Shown here: piece by piece, positions 21,071 to 56,285 of the stretch
Position numbering within the stretch: the first letter of the stretch is position 1
Layout of the letters: the number at the start of each line of letters is the position of its first letter
Notes under the pieces: generated by a model
Databases searched by the model: none
Seen by the model: the letters and a program-made list of their open reading frames with translations, nothing else
What the model was told of the DNA's origin: nothing
Source: a virus
Direction: 5' to 3' (one strand)
DNA: 56,680 bases
IMG/VR virus record: IMGVR_UViG_3300032893_000055
Coordinates: 1-56,680 of that record
Program-made: the position numbers and the translations under genes

Positions 21071-21517
21071 TCACACCTTTATATTTAGTAATAATTTTTC
21101 GAGTTCAGACATTTCAGTAATCATGTTTATTAATATATCGTAACAATGTTTAATACCAGTTTCATAACTTTTATTAGCATCAGCATAAGCATCAGCAGCA
21201 TCAGCAGCAGCATTAGCAGCAGCAGCATAAGCATTAGCAGCAGCATTAGCAGCATAACTAGCAGCATCAGCAGCATTAGCAGCAGCATAATCAGCAGCAG
21301 CATAACCAGCATAAGCAGCAAGTTCTAATTCGTTTTTACTTACAGGTTTGCCGTCTAGCCATTGTTTAACTAAGTCTAAACATTTAACTGCCTGAGACTT
21401 AGGGTTAGGAACTAGGGAGTTAGCGTACATAGCACACTCATAAGCGTATTTGACTAAGAACTTATGGCTAAACTCGTTATTATATAAAATATATTTGATT
21501 TGGTCATAATGGTTCAT
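21071..21517 (-). CDS. Ala-repeat orphan-family protein, copy 2
   Basis: 148 aa. It starts MNHYDQIKYILYNNEFSHK, continues to 'QWLDGKPVSKNELE', then an Ala repeat with many Asp and Asn interruptions (about 73-118), ending 'IKHCYDILINMITEM' and 'SELEKLLLNIK'. The flanks are almost identical to copies 1, 3 and 5 at DNA level, pointing to recent duplication or gene conversion. The start overlaps the stop of the VWA gene (21514-21517, ATGA), so it is co-translated with the MoxR/VWA pair. Confidence 0.8.
   Translation of the reverse strand: MNHYDQIKYILYNNEFSHKFLVKYAYECAMYANSLVPNPKSQAVKCLDLVKQWLDGKPVSKNELELAAYAGYAAADYAAANAADAASYAANAAANAYAAAANAAADAADAYADANKSYETGIKHCYDILINMITEMSELEKLLLNIKV
21175..21322 (-). 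repeat. Trinucleotide Ala repeat tract, copy 2
   Basis: GCT codons with GAT, AAT, TAT and AGT interruptions. This tract is the richest in GAT (Asp), so the encoded helix is the most acidic of the copies. Confidence 0.85.
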
Positions 21518-22659
21518 TTTCTATTAACTTCTATTTTAATAGAAGTTCCCCAACTAGCAGGCGGGTTTTGTTTGCCAACGATAGCCCATAACACCGGGTA
21601 TTTAGGTTTTTTAAGTGTTTCATGGTCGTAGTTATCCATATCCCCAAAGTATATCACACCGTCTACATCAGTTTCATTAGAAAAATAATCTAATGCAGGT
21701 TGATACGCTGTTCCTCCTCGTCCTTTTATTTTATATTGCTTTTTAGTATCGAATATATAACTGTTTTTAACTTCAGTATCAGCTTCTACAACTGTAACTA
21801 ATGCATGTTTAGCTATATTAGCTATTTCTGCCATAAATTGAGACAATTCTTCGTCTGAAATACTACCCGACGTATCGACAGCGACTCCTATATGGAGTTC
21901 TTCGCGTTTAATCACTCCGGGATGCAATATTCCGTAACGGCGGTTACGTCGTTTTTTCGAAGTATCTATTTGAATATTCAAGGATTTAGCTACGAATCTA
22001 CGTAAATCTGTTTTCCAGTCTTTGGGCTTGTAATTAAGTCGTTCTACTAATACTTCGTGGTCATTAGTCATTTTACCGGCTTGACGAGTTTTTTCAGCAG
22101 CTTTGTTAACAAGTTTTCTGATTTTCTCTTTAAGTTCCTCGTTTGATCCGTCGCTATCGATCCATAATTTGTGTCCGTCGAAATCAATCATTTGTTTGAG
22201 TTTATCGTTGTTTTTAAGCTGTTCGGCGTAATACTCCATAGTTTCGCCAGGTTTAAGGCCGAATTTCTCAGGAAGCATGCCGAATTCAGGTATATGTTTA
22301 ATCCCTGAGTTAATCGCGCAATCAGCCGCTATATTAAGACTTTGAAATTTTAAGTTGTTTATAATAGCATCAGCAACGTCTTTAGACTCGTTGTTATAAA
22401 CTTCAGGCGCTAAGTCTTTAAACCTGTTTATATGGTTGTTAAGTATGTGTTGACATTCATGTTTAAGAATAGCTATTTGTTCGTCTTGAGTTAAACTTTC
22501 GAAAAATTTAGGGTTTATATGTAATTGTACGTTAGACTTAATACACACGCCAGCTGTAGGGATTTTATCAGTTATGATTCTATCCATATGAATAAGAAGC
22601 TCAGCATAAAACCGTTCTTCGTTAAACAATCTAACTATGGCGTGTGTAAGTTTATCCAT
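21514..22659 (-). CDS. VWA-domain protein with HExxH metallopeptidase-like N-domain (DUF2201 type)
   Basis: 381 aa. Residues 60-80 contain HECQH (67-71), a zinc-peptidase motif, followed by 'AADCAIN' near 111 that can supply a further ligand. The C-terminal half is a von Willebrand A-type fold with a MIDAS-like DTSGS (262-266). This two-domain order is that of the widespread VWA-like metallopeptidase family found beside MoxR ATPases, and of CobT-like proteins in some phages. It overlaps the MoxR gene by eight bases, so the pair should act together as an ATPase with its metal-binding partner. The substrate is unknown. The nearby B12-dependent ribonucleotide reductase makes a cobalt/cobalamin link worth considering but not shown. 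Confidence 0.8.
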   Translation of the reverse strand: MDKLTHAIVRLFNEERFYAELLIHMDRIITDKIPTAGVCIKSNVQLHINPKFFESLTQDEQIAILKHECQHILNNHINRFKDLAPEVYNNESKDVADAIINNLKFQSLNIAADCAINSGIKHIPEFGMLPEKFGLKPGETMEYYAEQLKNNDKLKQMIDFDGHKLWIDSDGSNEELKEKIRKLVNKAAEKTRQAGKMTNDHEVLVERLNYKPKDWKTDLRRFVAKSLNIQIDTSKKRRNRRYGILHPGVIKREELHIGVAVDTSGSISDEELSQFMAEIANIAKHALVTVVEADTEVKNSYIFDTKKQYKIKGRGGTAYQPALDYFSNETDVDGVIYFGDMDNYDHETLKKPKYPVLWAIVGKQNPPASWGTSIKIEVNRK

Positions 22660-23761
22660 TTGTTAGGCCTTTAGCTGATCTAGTAATAACTAGAAGTTTA
22701 GGTTCGTAGTCTGGAGACCTAATAAAGTTTTTAAACAATTTAAGGTCTTCTGCTAACAACTTTTTAAGCAATGGGTAAGCTGTATCTTTAGGTAAAACTT
22801 CTATGAATTTCATGAAATTGTCAGATTCTTCTTTAGTCAAATTCTCAGTTTCTTTAGACTTAGCTACCAATAAACTAAACACATTATCACAAGTACCTGA
22901 CACTAGGCTTGCTTTAATGTCTATAGGATTAGACCATTTTTCTACCAGGTTAAGTCTTTGGCCTAGTAGCACTTCTTCGCCTGTTAAAACTTTTTCTTGG
23001 CTTTGTAAATGAAGTTTGTATGCTACAAGTCTTTCAATGCCTATAATACCTTGCATAAGCTGTTCTAACAAGTTCATAGGCGTTTTGACGTTAAACAGTT
23101 TGTTTACCCGCTCATACGAACGTCTGTCTACTTTAACGGGTAAAGTAAACGTCGATTTAGCGTCTTCCAAAAGATCAGGTTGTTCTTGGATAAAAGATAC
23201 TAATGAGGATTCGAATTTATTAGACTGCGCATAAGTAACCCATTCCTGGAATGTTGGCTCAAGCTTAATATGGCAAAACCTAGCCATAAGCGCAGTCTCA
23301 TTAACGTCAGTTACATAGTATTCTTCTGTAGGCGGATTACCCGCTGCTACTATGTAGCAGTTCTTAGGGAACTTAAGTGTATGAAATGTTTTATCTAAAG
23401 CTAAAGAAAACATACCATTTAGAATATCTCGTCTAGCGCGGTTAAATTCGTCTAAAAATATTACTGCGCCTGATTCAGGATTTTCATTACAAAAATCGAT
23501 CATGTTTTTGATCCATTCAGGCGGTGCAAAATGAGTAGCAATTTCTGATCCTTTAGAATCTTTGACAAAACTAGCTAGCCCTAATATATCGCCTAAATCG
23601 CTTTGTGTGCCTAAATAAAAAGGGAAGAACTTGTATCCCTTCGATTCGGCGTATTGTTTAACGATTGTAGACTTACCTATTCCGGCATGGCCCCAAATAA
23701 ATGGCGTGATTTCTGCCTTAAACAGGTATTCTAAACTAGCTTGTAGATCTTTTATATTCAT
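22652..23761 (-). CDS. MoxR/CobS-like AAA+ ATPase
   Basis: 369 aa. Walker A GHAGIGKST (24-32), Walker B VIFLDEFNRA (FLDE 102-105), the MoxR-typical 'AAGNPPTEEYYVTDVNETALMARFC' sensor region after residue 120, and a lid domain. MoxR-type ATPases remodel or insert metals into partner complexes together with VWA proteins. The gene directly downstream encodes such a partner. Its SD (AAGGAGG) sits right before the ATG and follows a gene-free 60 bases. Phage homologues are sometimes labelled CobS; the full cobaltochelatase large subunit is absent here. Confidence 0.85.
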   Translation of the reverse strand: MNIKDLQASLEYLFKAEITPFIWGHAGIGKSTIVKQYAESKGYKFFPFYLGTQSDLGDILGLASFVKDSKGSEIATHFAPPEWIKNMIDFCNENPESGAVIFLDEFNRARRDILNGMFSLALDKTFHTLKFPKNCYIVAAGNPPTEEYYVTDVNETALMARFCHIKLEPTFQEWVTYAQSNKFESSLVSFIQEQPDLLEDAKSTFTLPVKVDRRSYERVNKLFNVKTPMNLLEQLMQGIIGIERLVAYKLHLQSQEKVLTGEEVLLGQRLNLVEKWSNPIDIKASLVSGTCDNVFSLLVAKSKETENLTKEESDNFMKFIEVLPKDTAYPLLKKLLAEDLKLFKNFIRSPDYEPKLLVITRSAKGLTNG

Positions 23762-45147: not shown

Positions 45148-45445
45148 CGATTAATGTCCCTAATTCTTGTTGTCTTAACAACATTGCACAACAAGCTCTA
45201 ACAGAGCCTAAATGTGGCTGTCCGTCTACTGGATCGTTTTCTTCCCCTTCAAACCACGCATAAGCGTGTCTTAACAAAGCCGCCATAAGTTGACTTGCTT
45301 TATGCCCTTTACAATAATTATATCTTCCGTATTTTTGCTCGCCTACCATAAAAGCTTGAGCTTCAGCTATTTGAGCTACGTAAGGAATCAAAGATAAATC
45401 AGGTTTTTGTTTATCGTTCTTCGAAGCTTGCTGTTCGTCTGACAT
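45128..45445 (-). CDS. dATP/dGTP diphosphohydrolase N-domain-like (DUF5664) protein
   Basis: 105 aa. 'QKPDLSLIPYVAQIAEAQAFMVGEQKYGRYNYCKGH' followed by 'AALLRHAYAWFEGEENDPVDGQPHLGSVRACCAMLL' is the recognisable signature: KxDL..P, AxxFxxGxxKYGRxNYxxG, RHxxAxxxGE, HLxxVxA. It is an all-alpha MazG-like fold thought to hydrolyse dATP/dGTP; phage copies help shape the dNTP pool. A second all-alpha NTPase lies at 24087-24410. Overlaps both neighbours. Confidence 0.75.
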   Translation of the reverse strand: MSDEQQASKNDKQKPDLSLIPYVAQIAEAQAFMVGEQKYGRYNYCKGHKASQLMAALLRHAYAWFEGEENDPVDGQPHLGSVRACCAMLLRQQELGTLIDDRHKN

Positions 45446-45833
45446 TAGTTCCTCGAGTAGAGTGCCATTTTTTAAATACTTTAGCTGAATATTTTGTAAT
45501 AGTCAAGTTTTTTGCGTTACCCATATTATACGCTATCACGCCTCGTTGAACTGAATGATATCGTTTTATTTGATAAGATAAATATTTAGCGGCATAATAC
45601 ATGTTGGTTTCTGGATTCATTAATTGTTTTTTAGTTCCTTTAAAACCTAACCATTTAGCCGTATTTAATTTAATTTGGCAAACACCTAGGCTATCTTCGC
45701 CGCCGTCATCATGATGAACTGCGTTAATGTTATAACTGCTTTCAATGAAACACAATGAGGCCAATAAATCGGTCGGTAGATCGAATTTGGCTGATGTCGC
45801 TGAAAATAATGTTAATAATATAAGTGTGTTCAT
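45411..45833 (-). CDS. Exported lytic transglycosylase
   Basis: 140 aa from ATG 45833 (an in-frame GTG at 45848 adds five residues). Signal peptide MNTLILLTLFSATSA with a likely cut before KFDLP. SLT/lysozyme-like pattern: catalytic Glu31 in 'CFIESSYN', 'GGEDSLGVCQIKLNTAKWLG', 'NPETNMYYAAKYLSYQI', 'VIAYNMG'. It cleaves glycan strands. It is encoded in the early region, away from the endolysin, and exported by Sec, so a role in cell-wall remodelling early in infection or superinfection control is more likely than lysis. Confidence 0.8.
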   Translation of the reverse strand: MNTLILLTLFSATSAKFDLPTDLLASLCFIESSYNINAVHHDDGGEDSLGVCQIKLNTAKWLGFKGTKKQLMNPETNMYYAAKYLSYQIKRYHSVQRGVIAYNMGNAKNLTITKYSAKVFKKWHSTRGTNVRRTASFEER

Positions 45834-45893
45834 ACCTATATTATACACTGAAATGGTGAGAATTTGAGTTAAATTTGTATTTGTATCAAAATA

Positions 45894-47055: not shown

Positions 47056-48613
47056 TTAATCGACTCTCACCATTTGTTATAGTCACATTGTACTTAGTAG
47101 TAAATTTAGTCTTAAAATCAGCAGAATGCTCAACAATATAAATTGATTGATAAACATCTTGTAAACTATTAAAAAGATTAAAAGCTTTAGATTTAAAATC
47201 GTCATCCATTCCGTCCAAAGCCTCATCAAAAAAGGCTATATTTAAACTTGTAAACTTAGTATTATGTAAAACTTCCATAACTGCAATACCGAAGCATAAC
47301 TTAAATATCTGTTTTTGGCCTTTACTTAATTGATTAAATGAACAATTGTTTGCATCTTTGTTTATAACAACATCTATTTTATCTGATGCTTTAATATCAA
47401 AACTTACTACGAATTCAGAATCAAAGTATTCAGACAAATATTGATTGACTTTGGCTTCTATATTAGACACCGTGTTGTTTATTTGAGTTTTTCTTGCTTC
47501 TATTAATATGTTTTCTAAGTCTGTTAAATCATTTAATTTATCTGATAATAAATGAGCTTGTTGTGTAATATTTTTTTGCTCTTGAATATGTTTATTCCAT
47601 TGATTAGTTTTATCTTCTATAAGTTGAATATAAGGATTTTCTTCTGATCTAGTTTCTAACTCAATAATTTGTTCTTTAGACAAACTTATATGTTCTTCTA
47701 TATAATCTTTAGTTGAAGCAAGTTTAGTTCGTTCTTTATATAAAATATTATATTTATCCTGTAAATCTACAGATTTAGAGTTTTTTATAGGATTACCGCA
47801 GGATTTACATTTTTCTTTAGACAATATTGCTAAGTCTTGTTGTATTACTTCGGATTGTGTTTTGTTGTCATTTAGTTGAGTTTGTACTATTTTTAAGTTT
47901 TGAATATAATCTTCAATACTTTGCTTTAATTTAAGTATATCTTCTTGAATTTTAGATTTTGAAGTTTGTTCAAACTTAAGTTTTAATTGAGTTAAATTTT
48001 TGATATCTGATTCAGATTGCCGGATAAGTACATCATATTTTTCTTCTGAATTAATAAGTTTTATCAGATTTTGTGAAATTGTATGTTTGGATTCAGTCAA
48101 ATTAGTTGTAATAGTTTTGATTAAATTCAAATCTACTATGTTTTCGAATAACTGACGTCTTTGTTTTGCTGTCGCTGTAAAAAATCTAGCCGAAATAGAA
48201 TTCTCATTATAATATGTACTTGCTAAAAATGTTGAAGAATTACTATTTATAATAGCGTTGATTTTTAATTGAGTATCATTTATATCTTTACCGCGAATTG
48301 GAAGGCTACCATTTAGTCTGTAATAAAGATCCGATTTAGAACCGCCGCGAGACCTAAATATAACGAGTTCGTTACCGGCCCATTCTAAGCATATTGAACC
48401 TACTGTAGGTCCGTCTTTATTCCACGCGATTACTTCGTCAACTGCACCGTCCTTGGCAGTTATTCCAAACAAAATCCATGGTAAAACATCACATAATGTG
48501 CTTTTGCCTGAACCCGTAGAACCATGAATAAGAACCAGCCCATTATCATCAAAATCAAATTTAAGTCTACGATAAGATACAAAATTTTCTATTTCACAGC
48601 TATGAATTCTCAT
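47042..48613 (-). CDS. SbcC/Rad50-like recombination ATPase (gp46 type)
   Basis: 523 aa. Walker A GSTGSGKST (31-39), long central coiled coils (about 160-400) interrupted by a zinc-hook CKSCG (Cys269, Cys272), then the signature 'LSKGQKQIFKLCFG' and Walker B 'IAFFDEALDGMDDD'. It works with the SbcD-like nuclease to process DNA ends and hairpins. The coiled coils are short compared with bacterial SbcC, as usual for phage versions. It overlaps the SbcD-like gene by 14 bases. Confidence 0.9.
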   Translation of the reverse strand: MRIHSCEIENFVSYRRLKFDFDDNGLVLIHGSTGSGKSTLCDVLPWILFGITAKDGAVDEVIAWNKDGPTVGSICLEWAGNELVIFRSRGGSKSDLYYRLNGSLPIRGKDINDTQLKINAIINSNSSTFLASTYYNENSISARFFTATAKQRRQLFENIVDLNLIKTITTNLTESKHTISQNLIKLINSEEKYDVLIRQSESDIKNLTQLKLKFEQTSKSKIQEDILKLKQSIEDYIQNLKIVQTQLNDNKTQSEVIQQDLAILSKEKCKSCGNPIKNSKSVDLQDKYNILYKERTKLASTKDYIEEHISLSKEQIIELETRSEENPYIQLIEDKTNQWNKHIQEQKNITQQAHLLSDKLNDLTDLENILIEARKTQINNTVSNIEAKVNQYLSEYFDSEFVVSFDIKASDKIDVVINKDANNCSFNQLSKGQKQIFKLCFGIAVMEVLHNTKFTSLNIAFFDEALDGMDDDFKSKAFNLFNSLQDVYQSIYIVEHSADFKTKFTTKYNVTITNGESRLNGET

Positions 48614-49589
48614 CGGCTAAATCTCTCCATACTTCTTTTATATTAGATTTTTTAGCCGGTGTCCAGTCTTGTTGTTCAATCAATTCATCTATAAGTTCAT
48701 TTGTATTTAATGTGTTTGTTTTATATTCACATATTTCATCGTTAGTTGAGAATTCTATGCGAGTTTGTGCAGGTATAAGATTAAGTTGATTACATATTTT
48801 TTCTTTATTAAGTTTCAATAATTCAGCATTAGATATATGTAGTTTCAGCCACACATAATCGTCTTTTGAAACAGTAATATTCTGTATGTTTTTCCAATCA
48901 AATTCATATTTAATGTGTCTGCCTAAGTTAGTAGAAACAAATTCGAGACTTCCATCTTCATATAAAATTTGATACCCTTTTTCAGGGTCTTTGGCTTCAC
49001 CAAAAGAAGTTGTAAACGGATTCCCTATATAAGAAAATAAGTTATCACCGATTTTGATATCTTGCCTGGCATGATAATGTCCAGAAATAACTCTGTAGTC
49101 TTTAACCCAATCTTTAAGAATCGCAGTTTTATCGAATGTATATTCGCCAGGAAGCGCAGACACTAAGCCTTGATGCATTATAATCCTGCTGTTTGTGGGT
49201 ATATCATTTATGATATGTCTGAACTCCATTAAATCATACTGATAAGGAATACAGTAGCTATCGATAGGTTCTATATATTGCGGCGTGTCTATTACATGAG
49301 CGTAAGGTTTAAGGAAGTTTAGGCTATGCTCATCTGATTTTTCATTTATTTTATCATGATTCCCTACTAAGATGTACACTTCGCAGGTGTACGGAGTCAA
49401 TGTGGATATGAGTCGATTAATGCACTCTCCTCTGAGGTTAGCTTTGGTATCATGTAAATCGCCCGCTATTACTAGCGGTAGTTGTAGCTTAGTAGCGTGT
49501 TTTAGAGCTAAGTTTATAGCTTTGTCTGCTCGTTCTAATGTTTGTACGCTATAATGTACATCTGAAATCAAAACAGCTATTGGCTTCAT
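48600..49589 (-). CDS. SbcD/Mre11-like nuclease (gp47 type)
   Basis: 329 aa. Metallophosphoesterase motifs in order: 'ISDVHYS' (near 8), 'AGDLHD', 'LVGNHDKI', 'IMHQGL' and 'SGHYHA'. The C-terminal region binds the SbcC coiled-coil base. It degrades or nicks DNA ends for recombination-dependent replication. Start coupled to the preceding small gene (ATGA 49586-49589). Confidence 0.9.
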   Translation of the reverse strand: MKPIAVLISDVHYSVQTLERADKAINLALKHATKLQLPLVIAGDLHDTKANLRGECINRLISTLTPYTCEVYILVGNHDKINEKSDEHSLNFLKPYAHVIDTPQYIEPIDSYCIPYQYDLMEFRHIINDIPTNSRIIMHQGLVSALPGEYTFDKTAILKDWVKDYRVISGHYHARQDIKIGDNLFSYIGNPFTTSFGEAKDPEKGYQILYEDGSLEFVSTNLGRHIKYEFDWKNIQNITVSKDDYVWLKLHISNAELLKLNKEKICNQLNLIPAQTRIEFSTNDEICEYKTNTLNTNELIDELIEQQDWTPAKKSNIKEVWRDLADENS

Positions 49590-49777
49590 TTTTTTCTTTT
49601 ATTAACTTTTTTAACATCAATAATAATTTTACCGTGTTTATCAGTTTTAATTGAACTATCTTTAGCTCGTAGAGCTGTGTGTTTTCTATATTGATCCATA
49701 GCTAAATCTGATAAGCATTCAAACATATAAAGATGCATAGCGGCCAATTGTTTTTTAGTAATTTTAGGTTTTTTCAT
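49586..49777 (-). CDS. Small basic protein, 63 aa
   Basis: Not recognised. Lys-rich at both ends ('MKKPKITKKQLAAMHLYMFECL', 'DVKKVNKRKK'), with a helix in the first half. It may bind nucleic acid. It overlaps the SbcD-like start. Confidence 0.55.
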   Translation of the reverse strand: MKKPKITKKQLAAMHLYMFECLSDLAMDQYRKHTALRAKDSSIKTDKHGKIIIDVKKVNKRKK

Positions 49778-49817: not shown

Positions 49818-50024
49818 TTATACCTGTTCGGGTTTATTTTTTAGCTTCTCAAGTAATTCATAAGATCTTTTTAATTCTTCATAAGCTGAGTATTCTATAA
49901 CATGAATACCGTTATTGTCGAGGTCATCTTTAGTCGGATTCTCAATAACATTTGTAGTGACCTGTTTTAAAATACCATTTACGTAATTATAAACCCATGC
50001 AATATGAAATTCTCTAGGTTTCAT
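49818..50024 (-). CDS. Hypothetical protein, 68 aa
   Basis: Not recognised. Mixed alpha/beta: 'EFHIAWVYNYVNGILKQVTTNVIENP', then a C-terminal helix 'YEELKRSYELLEKLKNK'. Its start overlaps the cytochrome-like gene's stop (50021-50024, ATGA), indicating translation together. No motif. Confidence 0.55.
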   Translation of the reverse strand: MKPREFHIAWVYNYVNGILKQVTTNVIENPTKDDLDNNGIHVIEYSAYEELKRSYELLEKLKNKPEQV

Positions 50025-50284
50025 TTTTTAGCTCCTTGATCAATCCAAATTATAATTTTTTCACGTTCTTCGTCAGTAAGGCCTGTAACGTTATTATAAG
50101 GAGGCATTTCTTTGTTTTTAAGTTTAAATTTTATGGTGCCTGCGTATTTATGCGCGTTTTCATAAATAGTCCAGTCTTTGCCTGGTTGGATTTGTTCAGT
50201 ATGGCATGCATAGCACCTAGACACGAAAATAGGTTGTACATCTGAAAACGTTAGTACTGCGATTAACGCTAATTCATTCATCAT
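50021..50284 (-). CDS. c-type cytochrome-like protein
   Basis: 87 aa. Residues 24-28 are CYACH, a heme-attachment CxxCH. 'IFVSRCYACHTEQ', then 'GTIKFKLKNKEMPPYNN' with Met60-Pro-Pro (candidate axial ligand), then 'LTDEEREKIIIWIDQGA', reproduce the planctomycete/Bdellovibrio-type small cytochrome c domain in order and length. The N-terminus is hydrophobic (LALIAVLTF) but lacks a basic n-region, so export is uncertain. Heme attachment needs the periplasm. It overlaps the RecA-like gene (11 bases) and the 68-aa gene, so it is a genuine operon member. A respiratory or redox role for a phage protein is very unusual. Confidence 0.75.
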   Translation of the reverse strand: MMNELALIAVLTFSDVQPIFVSRCYACHTEQIQPGKDWTIYENAHKYAGTIKFKLKNKEMPPYNNVTGLTDEEREKIIIWIDQGAKK

Positions 50285-51137
50285 AACTCTCTGTCAGTTC
50301 TATACCTTTAGACGTAATGTCTAATTCTATGATTTTAGGGCCTGGATTAGCTTTATTAATATGATTTTTAAACAATCGCCAACTAACTTTAGCACCTATA
50401 CGAACTTTTTCGCCTTTAACTGTTTTCTCAAGCCAGGATTTACGGCTAGTTTGATAAGTAAGACTACTAAAAAAATTAACAGCTTTACCGCCTGCGTTAG
50501 TTTTACCGGGGCTTCCTATGTTGTCATAAGTATAATTAATAATGAGTATGGCTACATCATGTTCATCGCGTTTAGCTACAAGTTTGTTAAGTCCTAAGCG
50601 ATTAATTTGGCCTTTACCGCCTGGTTTTTGGCTTTGTTCTACTAAGTCTAGCTCCATATCACGCTTAGACACCACGTTGCCTAACGAATCGAATACGACT
50701 AGTAGTTTATCGTTAGGGTATTCTTTAAAAAAATTGTCCCATAAAGCAAACATTAATTCGAATGCTTCTTCGGCTACGGATGATTGTACTAACATGACTT
50801 GTAATTCGTCTACGCCATAGTTTTTTAAGTCGTTTTTAGTAGTTTTGCCTTCAGTTTCTACGTATAACACGCCATATCCTTGGGATTGGGCAGCCTTCAT
50901 AGCATCGATAGCACAAGATGTTTTACCGGAGTCTGAATCCCCAGCTATCATAACGATTTTATTTAAAGGCAATCCTGGAGTATTAGTCCCTTTTTGCCAC
51001 CATTCAGGCATAATCAGAAAATTCTCGTTTTTGAGTTCAGTAAGTTCGCTGCCGATGCCGAACTTGTTGGACATTTTTTCATCTTTATACAGGGCTTTGG
51101 TTTTTGAGACTACTTTGTCTAGATCAAATTTTTTCAT
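50274..51137 (-). CDS. RecA-family recombinase-like protein
   Basis: 287 aa. Walker A GDSDSGKTS (66-74), 'GVLYVETEGKTT' (ATP sensing strand), 'DKLLVVFDSLGNVV' Walker B, and 'DVAILIINYTYDN' with a Gly/Lys-rich loop ('GSPGKTNAGGKAVNFFSSLTY'), the L2-type DNA loop. It resembles UvsX/RecA-like phage recombinases that pair DNA strands or load replication proteins. It shares an ATGA overlap with the upstream gene and precedes the nuclease genes on the transcript. Confidence 0.85.
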   Translation of the reverse strand: MKKFDLDKVVSKTKALYKDEKMSNKFGIGSELTELKNENFLIMPEWWQKGTNTPGLPLNKIVMIAGDSDSGKTSCAIDAMKAAQSQGYGVLYVETEGKTTKNDLKNYGVDELQVMLVQSSVAEEAFELMFALWDNFFKEYPNDKLLVVFDSLGNVVSKRDMELDLVEQSQKPGGKGQINRLGLNKLVAKRDEHDVAILIINYTYDNIGSPGKTNAGGKAVNFFSSLTYQTSRKSWLEKTVKGEKVRIGAKVSWRLFKNHINKANPGPKIIELDITSKGIELTESYDE

Positions 51138-52165: not shown

Positions 52166-52648
52166 TTAAAGTTTTATATCAAGCAAAAGTTTTTCGAGTT
52201 CAGACATATTGTTAATCATGTTTATTAATAAGTCGTAATAATGTTTACCTCGTTCTTCGTCTATTTCATAGGTAGGATGAGTAGCTTGATTAGCGGCATA
52301 CGCGGCGTGAGCCGCATGAGAACAAGCCATTCTGCCAGCAGCAGCATAAGCAGCACGAGCAGCAGCATTGCGAGCATACTCGGAGGGGGTAACAGTAAAG
52401 CTCTGATAAGCTTCGCGCGCAGCATCCATTAATTCGTCGGTAGTTATATTTTTACCGTGTAACCATTGCTCGACTAGGTTTAAACACTCAGATGCGATTC
52501 TGGTAGACCCAAAACTATTGGCATACATAGCGCACTCATAAGCATATTTGACTAAGAACTTATGGCTAAACTCGTTTTTATGTAAAACGTTTCTAACACG
52601 ATCGATATAAGTCATTTTATGATTTATAAGAGAGCCAAGGGAACCCAT
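52166..52648 (-). CDS. Ala-rich orphan-family protein, copy 4 (basic, His-containing)
   Basis: 160 aa if started at ATG 52648 (TAATG overlap with the ClpP-like stop); an internal ATG at 52615 aligns with the other copies' starts. Conserved 'RNVLHKNEFSHKFLVKYAYECAMYANS', 'CLNLVEQWLHGKNITTDELMDAA' and 'HYYDLLINMINNMSELEKLLLDI'. The Ala segment (about 80-125) is not a pure trinucleotide repeat: it contains Arg, His, Gly, Met and Cys and varied codons. This copy therefore looks older and more stable. It is the second gene of the leftward early arm. Confidence 0.75.
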   Translation of the reverse strand: MGSLGSLINHKMTYIDRVRNVLHKNEFSHKFLVKYAYECAMYANSFGSTRIASECLNLVEQWLHGKNITTDELMDAAREAYQSFTVTPSEYARNAAARAAYAAAGRMACSHAAHAAYAANQATHPTYEIDEERGKHYYDLLINMINNMSELEKLLLDIKL

Positions 52649-53130
52649 TATACTATCTCATCGATGAGTCCTAAATCGAGACATTCTTGAGGAGTAAGAT
52701 AAGTATCGTTTAAATGTATGTGATCCCATTCAGTAGCTTTTGTACCGGTGTAGTGTTCTAACAAGTTATTCCACTGATTTTCCATCCTGCGTAATTGACG
52801 GACTTCAGCTTCTAGGTTAGACACCGAGCCGGATACTTCACCTGAATCTTCGTGAACCATAACCCAAGATTCTTGAGTCAAAAGTCGTTTATTACCAGCG
52901 GCTAGAATCAAAGTAGCGGCTGAAGCTACGTAGCCCATGCCGATGACTGTTATATAGCGTTTACTGAGTCTCATTAATGAGACTATGGCTAGTGCGGCAT
53001 GAGCATCACCGCCTGCGCTATGAAGTTGGATTTGTATTTTTTTGGAATCAGTAGACCTAAGAGCTTCTGAAAATGAAGTTAACATGTCTTCGTCGATATC
53101 GCCTATTAAATTAATTACAGGTAAGCTCAT
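52648..53130 (-). CDS. ClpP-like serine protease
   Basis: 160 aa. ClpP/crotonase-fold elements: 'IQLHSAGGDAHAALAI' (oxyanion region, 35-50), nucleophile Ser70 in 'GYVASAATLILAAG', His93 in 'WVMVHEDSG', Asp142 in 'HLNDTYLTPQECLDLGLID'. It is shorter than bacterial ClpP (about 195 aa) but complete in catalytic residues. In phages such proteins usually act in head maturation; here it is instead the first gene of the leftward early arm, far from the head module. AGGAGG lies before the ATG. Early host-protein degradation is a plausible alternative. Confidence 0.85.
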   Translation of the reverse strand: MSLPVINLIGDIDEDMLTSFSEALRSTDSKKIQIQLHSAGGDAHAALAIVSLMRLSKRYITVIGMGYVASAATLILAAGNKRLLTQESWVMVHEDSGEVSGSVSNLEAEVRQLRRMENQWNNLLEHYTGTKATEWDHIHLNDTYLTPQECLDLGLIDEIV

Positions 53131-55154: not shown

Positions 55155-55321
55155 CAAAAAATATTAACGAGATTATAAATTTTATTGATTATTTAAAAAA
55201 TCAAGAATACATAAGCTTATCGACTTATACATCAATTTTAAATGATATTTATCAAAAAGATAAAAAAGAAGAACAACCCGTAAACCTCCCATTAGGGAAA
55301 GGACAAAATGAAAAAAATTAA
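55151..55321 (+). CDS. Hypothetical protein, 56 aa
   Basis: An ORF from ATG 55151 (MTKNINEIINFIDYL) to TAA 55319-55321, starting inside the helicase stop (ATGA) and ending inside the next gene (AAATGAAAAA overlap). Helical, acidic/basic mix ('FIDYLKNQEYISLSTYTSILNDIYQKDKKEE'). Not recognised, but tight coupling indicates translation. Confidence 0.55.
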   Translation: MTKNINEIINFIDYLKNQEYISLSTYTSILNDIYQKDKKEEQPVNLPLGKGQNEKN

Positions 55322-56285
55322 ACTCATCCTAGCAATCACCGTAACATTGTTTTCAATTTTCGTTATTCTGAAAGCTGCTGCATCTAACAACACGGTTAAA
55401 CGAATCGTTTTAACTTCTAAAAACACTATCGCTCTTAGAGACCAAATTAATAGCGAAACTACAGCCGATATTATGGATCAAGCTAGAAGTCTTGATAAAA
55501 GCTTTATTATGTCTAAAATTTTTAATGATCCTATTTATTTAGTTTTACGAACACCAGGGGGCGATGTTCAATCAGGATTAGAAATGATTGAATCATTACA
55601 TGGTTTAAATCGTCGTATCGACACAATCACTGTGTTTTCAGCAAGTATGGGATTTCAGACAGTGCAGCAATTAGGCACACGTTATATCCTCACTAATGGC
55701 ATCCTCATGAGCCATAGAGCTAAAGGCACATTCGGCGGTGAATTTGGAGGATTAAAACCAGCCCAAATCGATAGTTATAAAAATTTCTGGGAACGCCGAA
55801 TTGATGAACTAGATGCAATGACTGTTTATCGTACACACGGATTACAAACTCTTGAGTCTTATCGTCAGGCTTATGCTCCTGAAATGTGGTTAACAGGGTC
55901 TCAGTCTGTAGACCAAGGATATGCAGACCAGTTAGTGACTATATCTTGTGACTCGAGTTTGTCAGGTAGTACGGTCCATGAAACCGCAGGTCCGTTTGAC
56001 ACGACTATATCCTATGAATTGGATGATTGTCCAATTTCAAGTACTCCTAGAAATATTAAGATTTCAGGATTTTTGACTAACAAAGGTTATATGTCTGTAG
56101 ACGAATTTAAGTCTAAAAACGGCGGATATGGCGCAGCTTGTTTGTTAGCCGCTAACACTAATGCTAATTTGGTTTGTGCGTCAGACACAGCTGTCTCATC
56201 TGAAGACTTAAACAAGATTAAACTTGATTTTATGCGTAAATTCGTTAACATTAAAGACAACGTAATACCGTTGGAGATCCATTAA
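55308..56285 (+). CDS. Membrane-anchored ClpP-like serine protease
   Basis: 325 aa. Residues 3-24 are a hydrophobic anchor or uncleaved signal ('KKIKLILAITVTLFSIFVILKA'). The ClpP/crotonase-type core has 'VLRTPGGDVQSG' (79-90), nucleophile Ser113 in 'FSASMGFQTV', and His136 in 'LMSHRAKG'. A C-terminal cysteine-containing extension (about 215-310) is unrelated to ClpP. It should sit on the periplasmic face of the membrane, like SppA/SDH-type periplasmic serine proteases. SD GGGAAAGGA. It is the second ClpP-like protease, on the opposite arm from the cytosolic one. Confidence 0.8.
   Translation: MKKIKLILAITVTLFSIFVILKAAASNNTVKRIVLTSKNTIALRDQINSETTADIMDQARSLDKSFIMSKIFNDPIYLVLRTPGGDVQSGLEMIESLHGLNRRIDTITVFSASMGFQTVQQLGTRYILTNGILMSHRAKGTFGGEFGGLKPAQIDSYKNFWERRIDELDAMTVYRTHGLQTLESYRQAYAPEMWLTGSQSVDQGYADQLVTISCDSSLSGSTVHETAGPFDTTISYELDDCPISSTPRNIKISGFLTNKGYMSVDEFKSKNGGYGAACLLAANTNANLVCASDTAVSSEDLNKIKLDFMRKFVNIKDNVIPLEIH

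Follow-up and report, generated by a model that had tools for sequence, protein, structure and literature searches.

The window analysed here, a 56,680-nucleotide stretch of DNA from a virus record, encodes at 50021–50284 (-) an 87-residue product that, judged from its sequence, is a class I monoheme cytochrome c. Our preferred reading, to which we assign a probability of roughly 0.45, is that the gene is acquired cargo in a phage genome and that the small protein it specifies acts as a periplasmic electron carrier sustaining host respiration during infection. Phages are already known to carry genes that touch electron transport, most of them for photosynthetic carriers or for subunits of enzymes; among these, a free-standing monoheme cytochrome c seems to be a new type.

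The open reading frame starts with ATG, and its translation (MMNELALIAVLTFSDVQPIFVSRCYACHTEQIQPGKDWTIYENAHKYAGTIKFKLKNKEMPPYNNVTGLTDEEREKIIIWIDQGAKK) matches the Pfam-A profile PF00034 (Cytochrom_C) at 26.7 bits (E 1.5e-5) against a cut-off of 21.3, and PF13442 (Cytochrome_CBB3) over residues 16–81 at 26.6 bits (E 7.8e-6), just under the cut-off of 27. A preliminary description of this DNA had read a CYACH motif, a following Met-Pro-Pro and the segment LTDEEREKIIIWIDQGA (residues 69–85) as the elements of a small cytochrome c domain, and both the PF00034 match and the motifs bear this out. CYACH (residues 24–28; 50201–50215 (-)) is the predicted site of heme c attachment and supplies the putative His axial ligand; it is invariant in alignment A3. 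Four CXXCH motifs occur across the six frames of the window, and only for CYACH does a long open frame also supply the remainder of the domain. Met61, which opens the Met-Pro-Pro at residues 61–63 (50096–50104 (-)), is the predicted sixth heme ligand. It coincides in alignment with the Met that PuuD cytochrome domains conserve, and its column is nearly invariant in the alignment of homologues, as the preliminary description had anticipated for a Met ligand. Arg74, 13 residues beyond Met61 (50063–50065 (-)), occupies an invariant column in A3 and is the counterpart of PuuD Arg398. An AlphaFold2 model of the protein (pLDDT 86.5, pTM 0.78) predicts helices at residues 13–24, 41–46, 48–56 and 71–82, such that an N-terminal helix reaches the CXXCH motif, two more lie mid-chain and a fourth forms the C-terminus; in the model this order matches class I cytochrome c. 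Foldseek comparison with solved structures ranks two cytochromes first, weakly (E 2.7–2.9, TM about 0.4–0.5), and a profile search of the PDB with the cytochrome likewise returns matches that are mostly cytochromes, but weak; the single sequence gave chance matches only in the PDB. The viral fold library BFVD yielded nothing at E < 1 for the model. Its top viral fold match there, A0A481YUA7 of Marseillevirus LCMAC102 (TM 0.67, E 1.8, probability 0.90), might be a giant-virus cytochrome-like protein.

The source record is a tailed phage known as an uncultured 56.7-kb contig, which encodes terminase, portal, head and tail proteins, a family A polymerase and helicases, as well as ThyX, RNR and a PAPS-reductase-like protein. 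No photosynthesis genes were recognised in this phage and no tRNAs in the window. Assignment of a host from the nearest cultured phages was tried and rejected: the terminase and polymerase matches all fall below 60% identity (24–32% among the matches listed) and are spread over unrelated hosts. Elsewhere in the window, a VWA/DUF2201 metallopeptidase-like protein, named HNH endonuclease in PHROGs, adjoins a MoxR-like AAA ATPase (21514–23761 (-)). Two ClpP-like proteases are encoded at 52648–53130 (-) and 55308–56285 (+); the latter has an N-terminal membrane or signal segment, and a secreted-looking relative of it is found in the related phage contig L113. An open reading frame at the contig end (22–213 (-)) consists almost entirely of Ser-Ile repeats and is more likely to be a simple repeat than a gene.

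The cytochrome gene lies within a recombination operon (recA/uvsX, sbcD, sbcC, endonuclease VII). Its upstream neighbour is a UvsX/RecA-like recombinase gene (50274–51137 (-); phrog_97 E 8.2e-32, PF00154 E 1.4e-16), which it overlaps by 11 nt, and on the other side it overlaps by 4 nt a 68-residue open reading frame (49818–50024 (-)). A 63-residue frame (49586–49777 (-)) is the third gene in the slot between recA and sbcD, and neither of these small frames has a match in the relatives considered below. The far border of the slot is formed by an SbcD-like nuclease gene (48600–49589 (-); phrog_100 E 7.6e-31), after which come SbcC and endonuclease VII. The GC3 of the cytochrome gene is 0.284 against a gene mean of 0.280, and in codon usage, too, it is a typical gene of this phage. 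The cytochrome is known in this slot from a single record, and no other contig was found with the same arrangement, as could be the case had host DNA been wrongly joined to the phage contig. The two overlaps and the phage-like codon usage make such an error very improbable, all the more with phage genes of one operon on both sides, and we see no sign of the misjoining that the preliminary description had allowed for. Its claim of a true phage gene, held with overlaps between the RecA-like gene and a small orphan, is supported. The arrangement, a bacterial-type metabolic gene flanked by phage genes, is the one expected of a phage auxiliary metabolic gene, which would in addition alter host metabolism during infection.

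Comparison with related phages indicates what kind of gene this is. Among 27 IMG/VR contigs whose RecA is about 52–75% identical to that of the window phage, SbcD is in every case the next conserved gene past RecA, with the two matches 2 to 589 bases apart, and in none of the 27 does a cytochrome lie between the two. If wide enough, the gap holds other genes: HNH-type open reading frames, read as such by eye, in two of the relatives (L099, 1697–2286; L102, 5855–6252), and small open reading frames in five (L103, L106, L107, L006 and L010). The HNH-type frames mark the recA–sbcD junction as a general insertion slot of the clade, and since the slot carries other cargo and lacks a cytochrome in all the relatives, the window cytochrome is private cargo in a variable position. 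The earlier assignment to the recombination operon therefore holds for its location but not for membership. No close homologue was found in INPHARED or PHROGs, nor in IMG/VR, whether queried with the single sequence or with either of two alignments, and a single-sequence scan of genome contigs was empty.

The nearest relatives in the sampled genomes, all of Pseudomonadota, are by sequence comparison the C-terminal cytochrome domains of PuuD. A scan of genome contigs with alignment A1 is biased towards PuuD by that alignment's own rows, and a single-sequence search was run to avoid the bias. In 398 evenly drawn Pseudomonadota genomes it returned 30 matches, nearly all in frames of 399–483 residues; the 18 loci examined contain the PuuD motif HGGGFY, with the cytochrome domain at the end. 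A profile search of the 398 genomes likewise gave strong matches in PuuD-sized frames, the sole short frame (147 residues) starting near a contig edge. In the opposite direction, a profile built from the PuuD cytochrome domains of 95 loci scores the window cytochrome at 63.1 bits, compared with 32–35 bits for two PSCyt-type domains and 13.6 bits for the top scorer among 45 other cytochrome domains, which came from four genomes that encode PuuD. Identity to the PuuD domains is 28–39%, and the phage protein keeps the heme residues, the Met and, 13 positions further on, the Arg. In a tree of 77 columns the protein sits on a long branch grouped with the PSCyt outgroup, a position that does not place it. 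Given this tree and a sampling drawn from Pseudomonadota only, the comparisons support a cytochrome of PuuD type but not one excised from a PuuD gene.

The relationship to PuuD also bears on function. An exported cytochrome c could serve some other role, such as the removal of superoxide or peroxide, or the withdrawal of electrons at one specific partner; for example, it might compete with the cytochrome domain of host PuuD and so slow purine breakdown while the phage needs nucleotides. The kinship itself, the retention of a surface Arg that is invariant in PuuD and the richness of the phage genome in nucleotide-metabolism genes would all suit such a role. We nevertheless regard it as unlikely, because identity to the PuuD domains is so modest, the PuuD membrane domain is missing and the tree does not show that the protein descends from PuuD.

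The clade contains a second cytochrome. When the whole records of the 27 relatives were searched with PF00034, PF13442 and the PuuD-type alignment, one further cytochrome came to light, in L113 (172–447 (-)), where a 92-residue product of the pattern MILGLLLATAIDVQ...CTSCH...HIMQP matches PF00034 at 22.7 bits and its gene adjoins one for a ClpP-like protease. The preliminary description had pointed to related phages as a place to look for the domain, and what they hold is this cytochrome c alone, unrelated to that of the window and away from the recA–sbcD slot. Against the PuuD-domain profile it scores 7.3 bits, which puts it in another sequence group. Like the window protein it is small, of class I and equipped with a short uncharged leader; it differs in sequence group and in genomic place. 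The presence of two unrelated monoheme cytochromes c in 28 clade records suggests, as far as sequences can tell, two separate gains, and since many of the records are fragments, two cytochromes is a minimum. We propose tentatively, and with somewhat less confidence than we place in the respiratory role itself, that the clade has on more than one occasion acquired monoheme cytochromes c that stand free and can be exported, and that it rewires host respiration with them, the window phage having done so with a PuuD-type domain alone. Such viruses may thus tamper with host respiration, and if the proposal is true, the compact, intact cytochrome c of a phage lacking recognised photosynthesis genes, taken with the unrelated one of its sister phage, would point to direct manipulation of aerobic respiration by phages.

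Attachment of heme c, a task of the host maturation system, takes place outside the cytoplasm. The N-terminal segment of the window cytochrome, MMNELALIAVLTFS (50243–50284 (-)), is short and hydrophobic and, from its sequence, its hydropathy and the style of the clade's transglycosylases, is a putative export signal; it contains one Glu and no Lys or Arg. Cleavage after Ser14 is a guess, and translation may actually begin at the second Met. A longer, charged leader is impossible, because a stop codon lies three codons 5′ of the ATG with no start codon in between. The preliminary description had noted the want of positive charge and, with it, a question over export and heme loading: the observation stands, whereas its force is weakened by an SLT transglycosylase encoded in the same run of genes, the replication operon (45411–45833 (-) from the likely ATG, within a wider span of 45411–45848; PF01464 E 6.4e-17). 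This protein has an uncharged leader, MNTLILLTLFSATSA, and its 11 close clade orthologues also lack Lys and Arg there, giving 12 members with this style. Uncharged leaders are thus usual in the clade's transglycosylases, which falls short of proving export of the cytochrome. Charged leaders occur on other exported proteins of the clade, and the uncharged style is accordingly confined to certain proteins and does not mark the clade at large. The transglycosylase leaders are an odd signal style in themselves, for which signal-arrest-release behaviour is conceivable.

An uncharged leader would also suit a passenger gene that was picked up recently and by accident, that does nothing for the phage and whose product is perhaps unexported and made as apoprotein only, and absence from this place in all close relatives, with no close viral homologue, fits such a history. 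We consider it fairly unlikely: the frame is intact and retains all heme residues despite its divergence from the nearest relatives, codon usage is adapted to the phage, the reading frames overlap those of the neighbours, and the clade harbours the second cytochrome of L113.

In the respiratory reading that we favour, the cytochrome would be made along with the replication genes and exported by the Sec route through its short uncharged leader. Assuming that the host has a cytochrome c maturation system and a cytochrome-dependent oxidase, that system would load heme c, and the periplasmic protein, soluble or loosely tethered, would carry electrons from the bc1 complex or periplasmic dehydrogenases to the terminal oxidase. 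The phage would gain respiratory electron flow, and so a supply of ATP and nucleotides, kept up after host gene expression has been shut down, in the way that electron-transport genes of cyanophages are presumed to keep photosynthesis going. We infer export, heme loading and electron-carrier function from the features described above, and the redirection of host respiration suggested in the preliminary description is plausible. The small size, the possibly uncleaved leader and the location in a cargo slot could also point to an anchored sensor or regulator responding to redox state or gas, or to a protein that excludes other phages at the envelope, genes of these kinds being frequent in such slots. 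This seems improbable for a protein that has no partner or signalling domain and whose kept residues are those of an ordinary Met–His electron carrier, and nothing observed points specifically to the redox sensing that the preliminary description proposed as an alternative.

Among cellular systems, PuuD, the membrane urate oxidase (COG3748), has in common with the phage cytochrome the CXXCH motif, the Met ligand with an Arg 13 residues later and the motif MPxxNxTGxTDEER. Doniselli et al. reported Arg398 of PuuD to be invariant, with the Met385/Arg398 spacing, and placed the cytochrome domain in the periplasm (PMC4562309); such domains, the nearest kin of the phage cytochrome, transfer electrons on the periplasmic side of the membrane (PMC4562309). 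In PuuD the cytochrome is fused to an eight-helix membrane domain, whereas the phage cytochrome stands free with its own leader, and the lack of that fused domain in an 87-residue frame with a stop three codons upstream means that the phage protein is not a PuuD. PSCyt1-type domains (PF07635) of DUF1553 proteins resemble it at their ends (DVxPI..xC.xCH; WIEQGA), but have 52–53 residues from CXXCH to MP compared with 31, some 20 more, and PF07635 gave no match to the phage protein.

Among viruses, a literature search of partial coverage for phage-encoded cytochrome c found nothing directly relevant, and we claim no priority. A study of nitrogen-cycle phage genes saw no cytochrome carriers (PMC8115048). 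An INPHARED microvirus coding sequence named "putative multiheme cytochrome c" (OQ184949.1, 3054–4403) was considered as a precedent and rejected; the part read contains no CXXCH, so the name looks wrong. In the literature found, the nearest published phage-borne c-type cytochrome is soxD, carried on phage contigs (Kieft et al. 2021, PMC8190135); it encodes a sulfane dehydrogenase subunit whose heme motifs are damaged or missing in the described copies (PMC8190135), whereas those of the window cytochrome are intact. The electron-transport genes of cyanophages, such as petE for plastocyanin, are presumed to keep electrons flowing during infection (PMC5082946). The window cytochrome is like their products in kind, all being small phage-borne electron-transport proteins. 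Those of cyanophages are photosynthetic, contain copper or iron-sulfur and no heme c, and act in cyanobacterial hosts.
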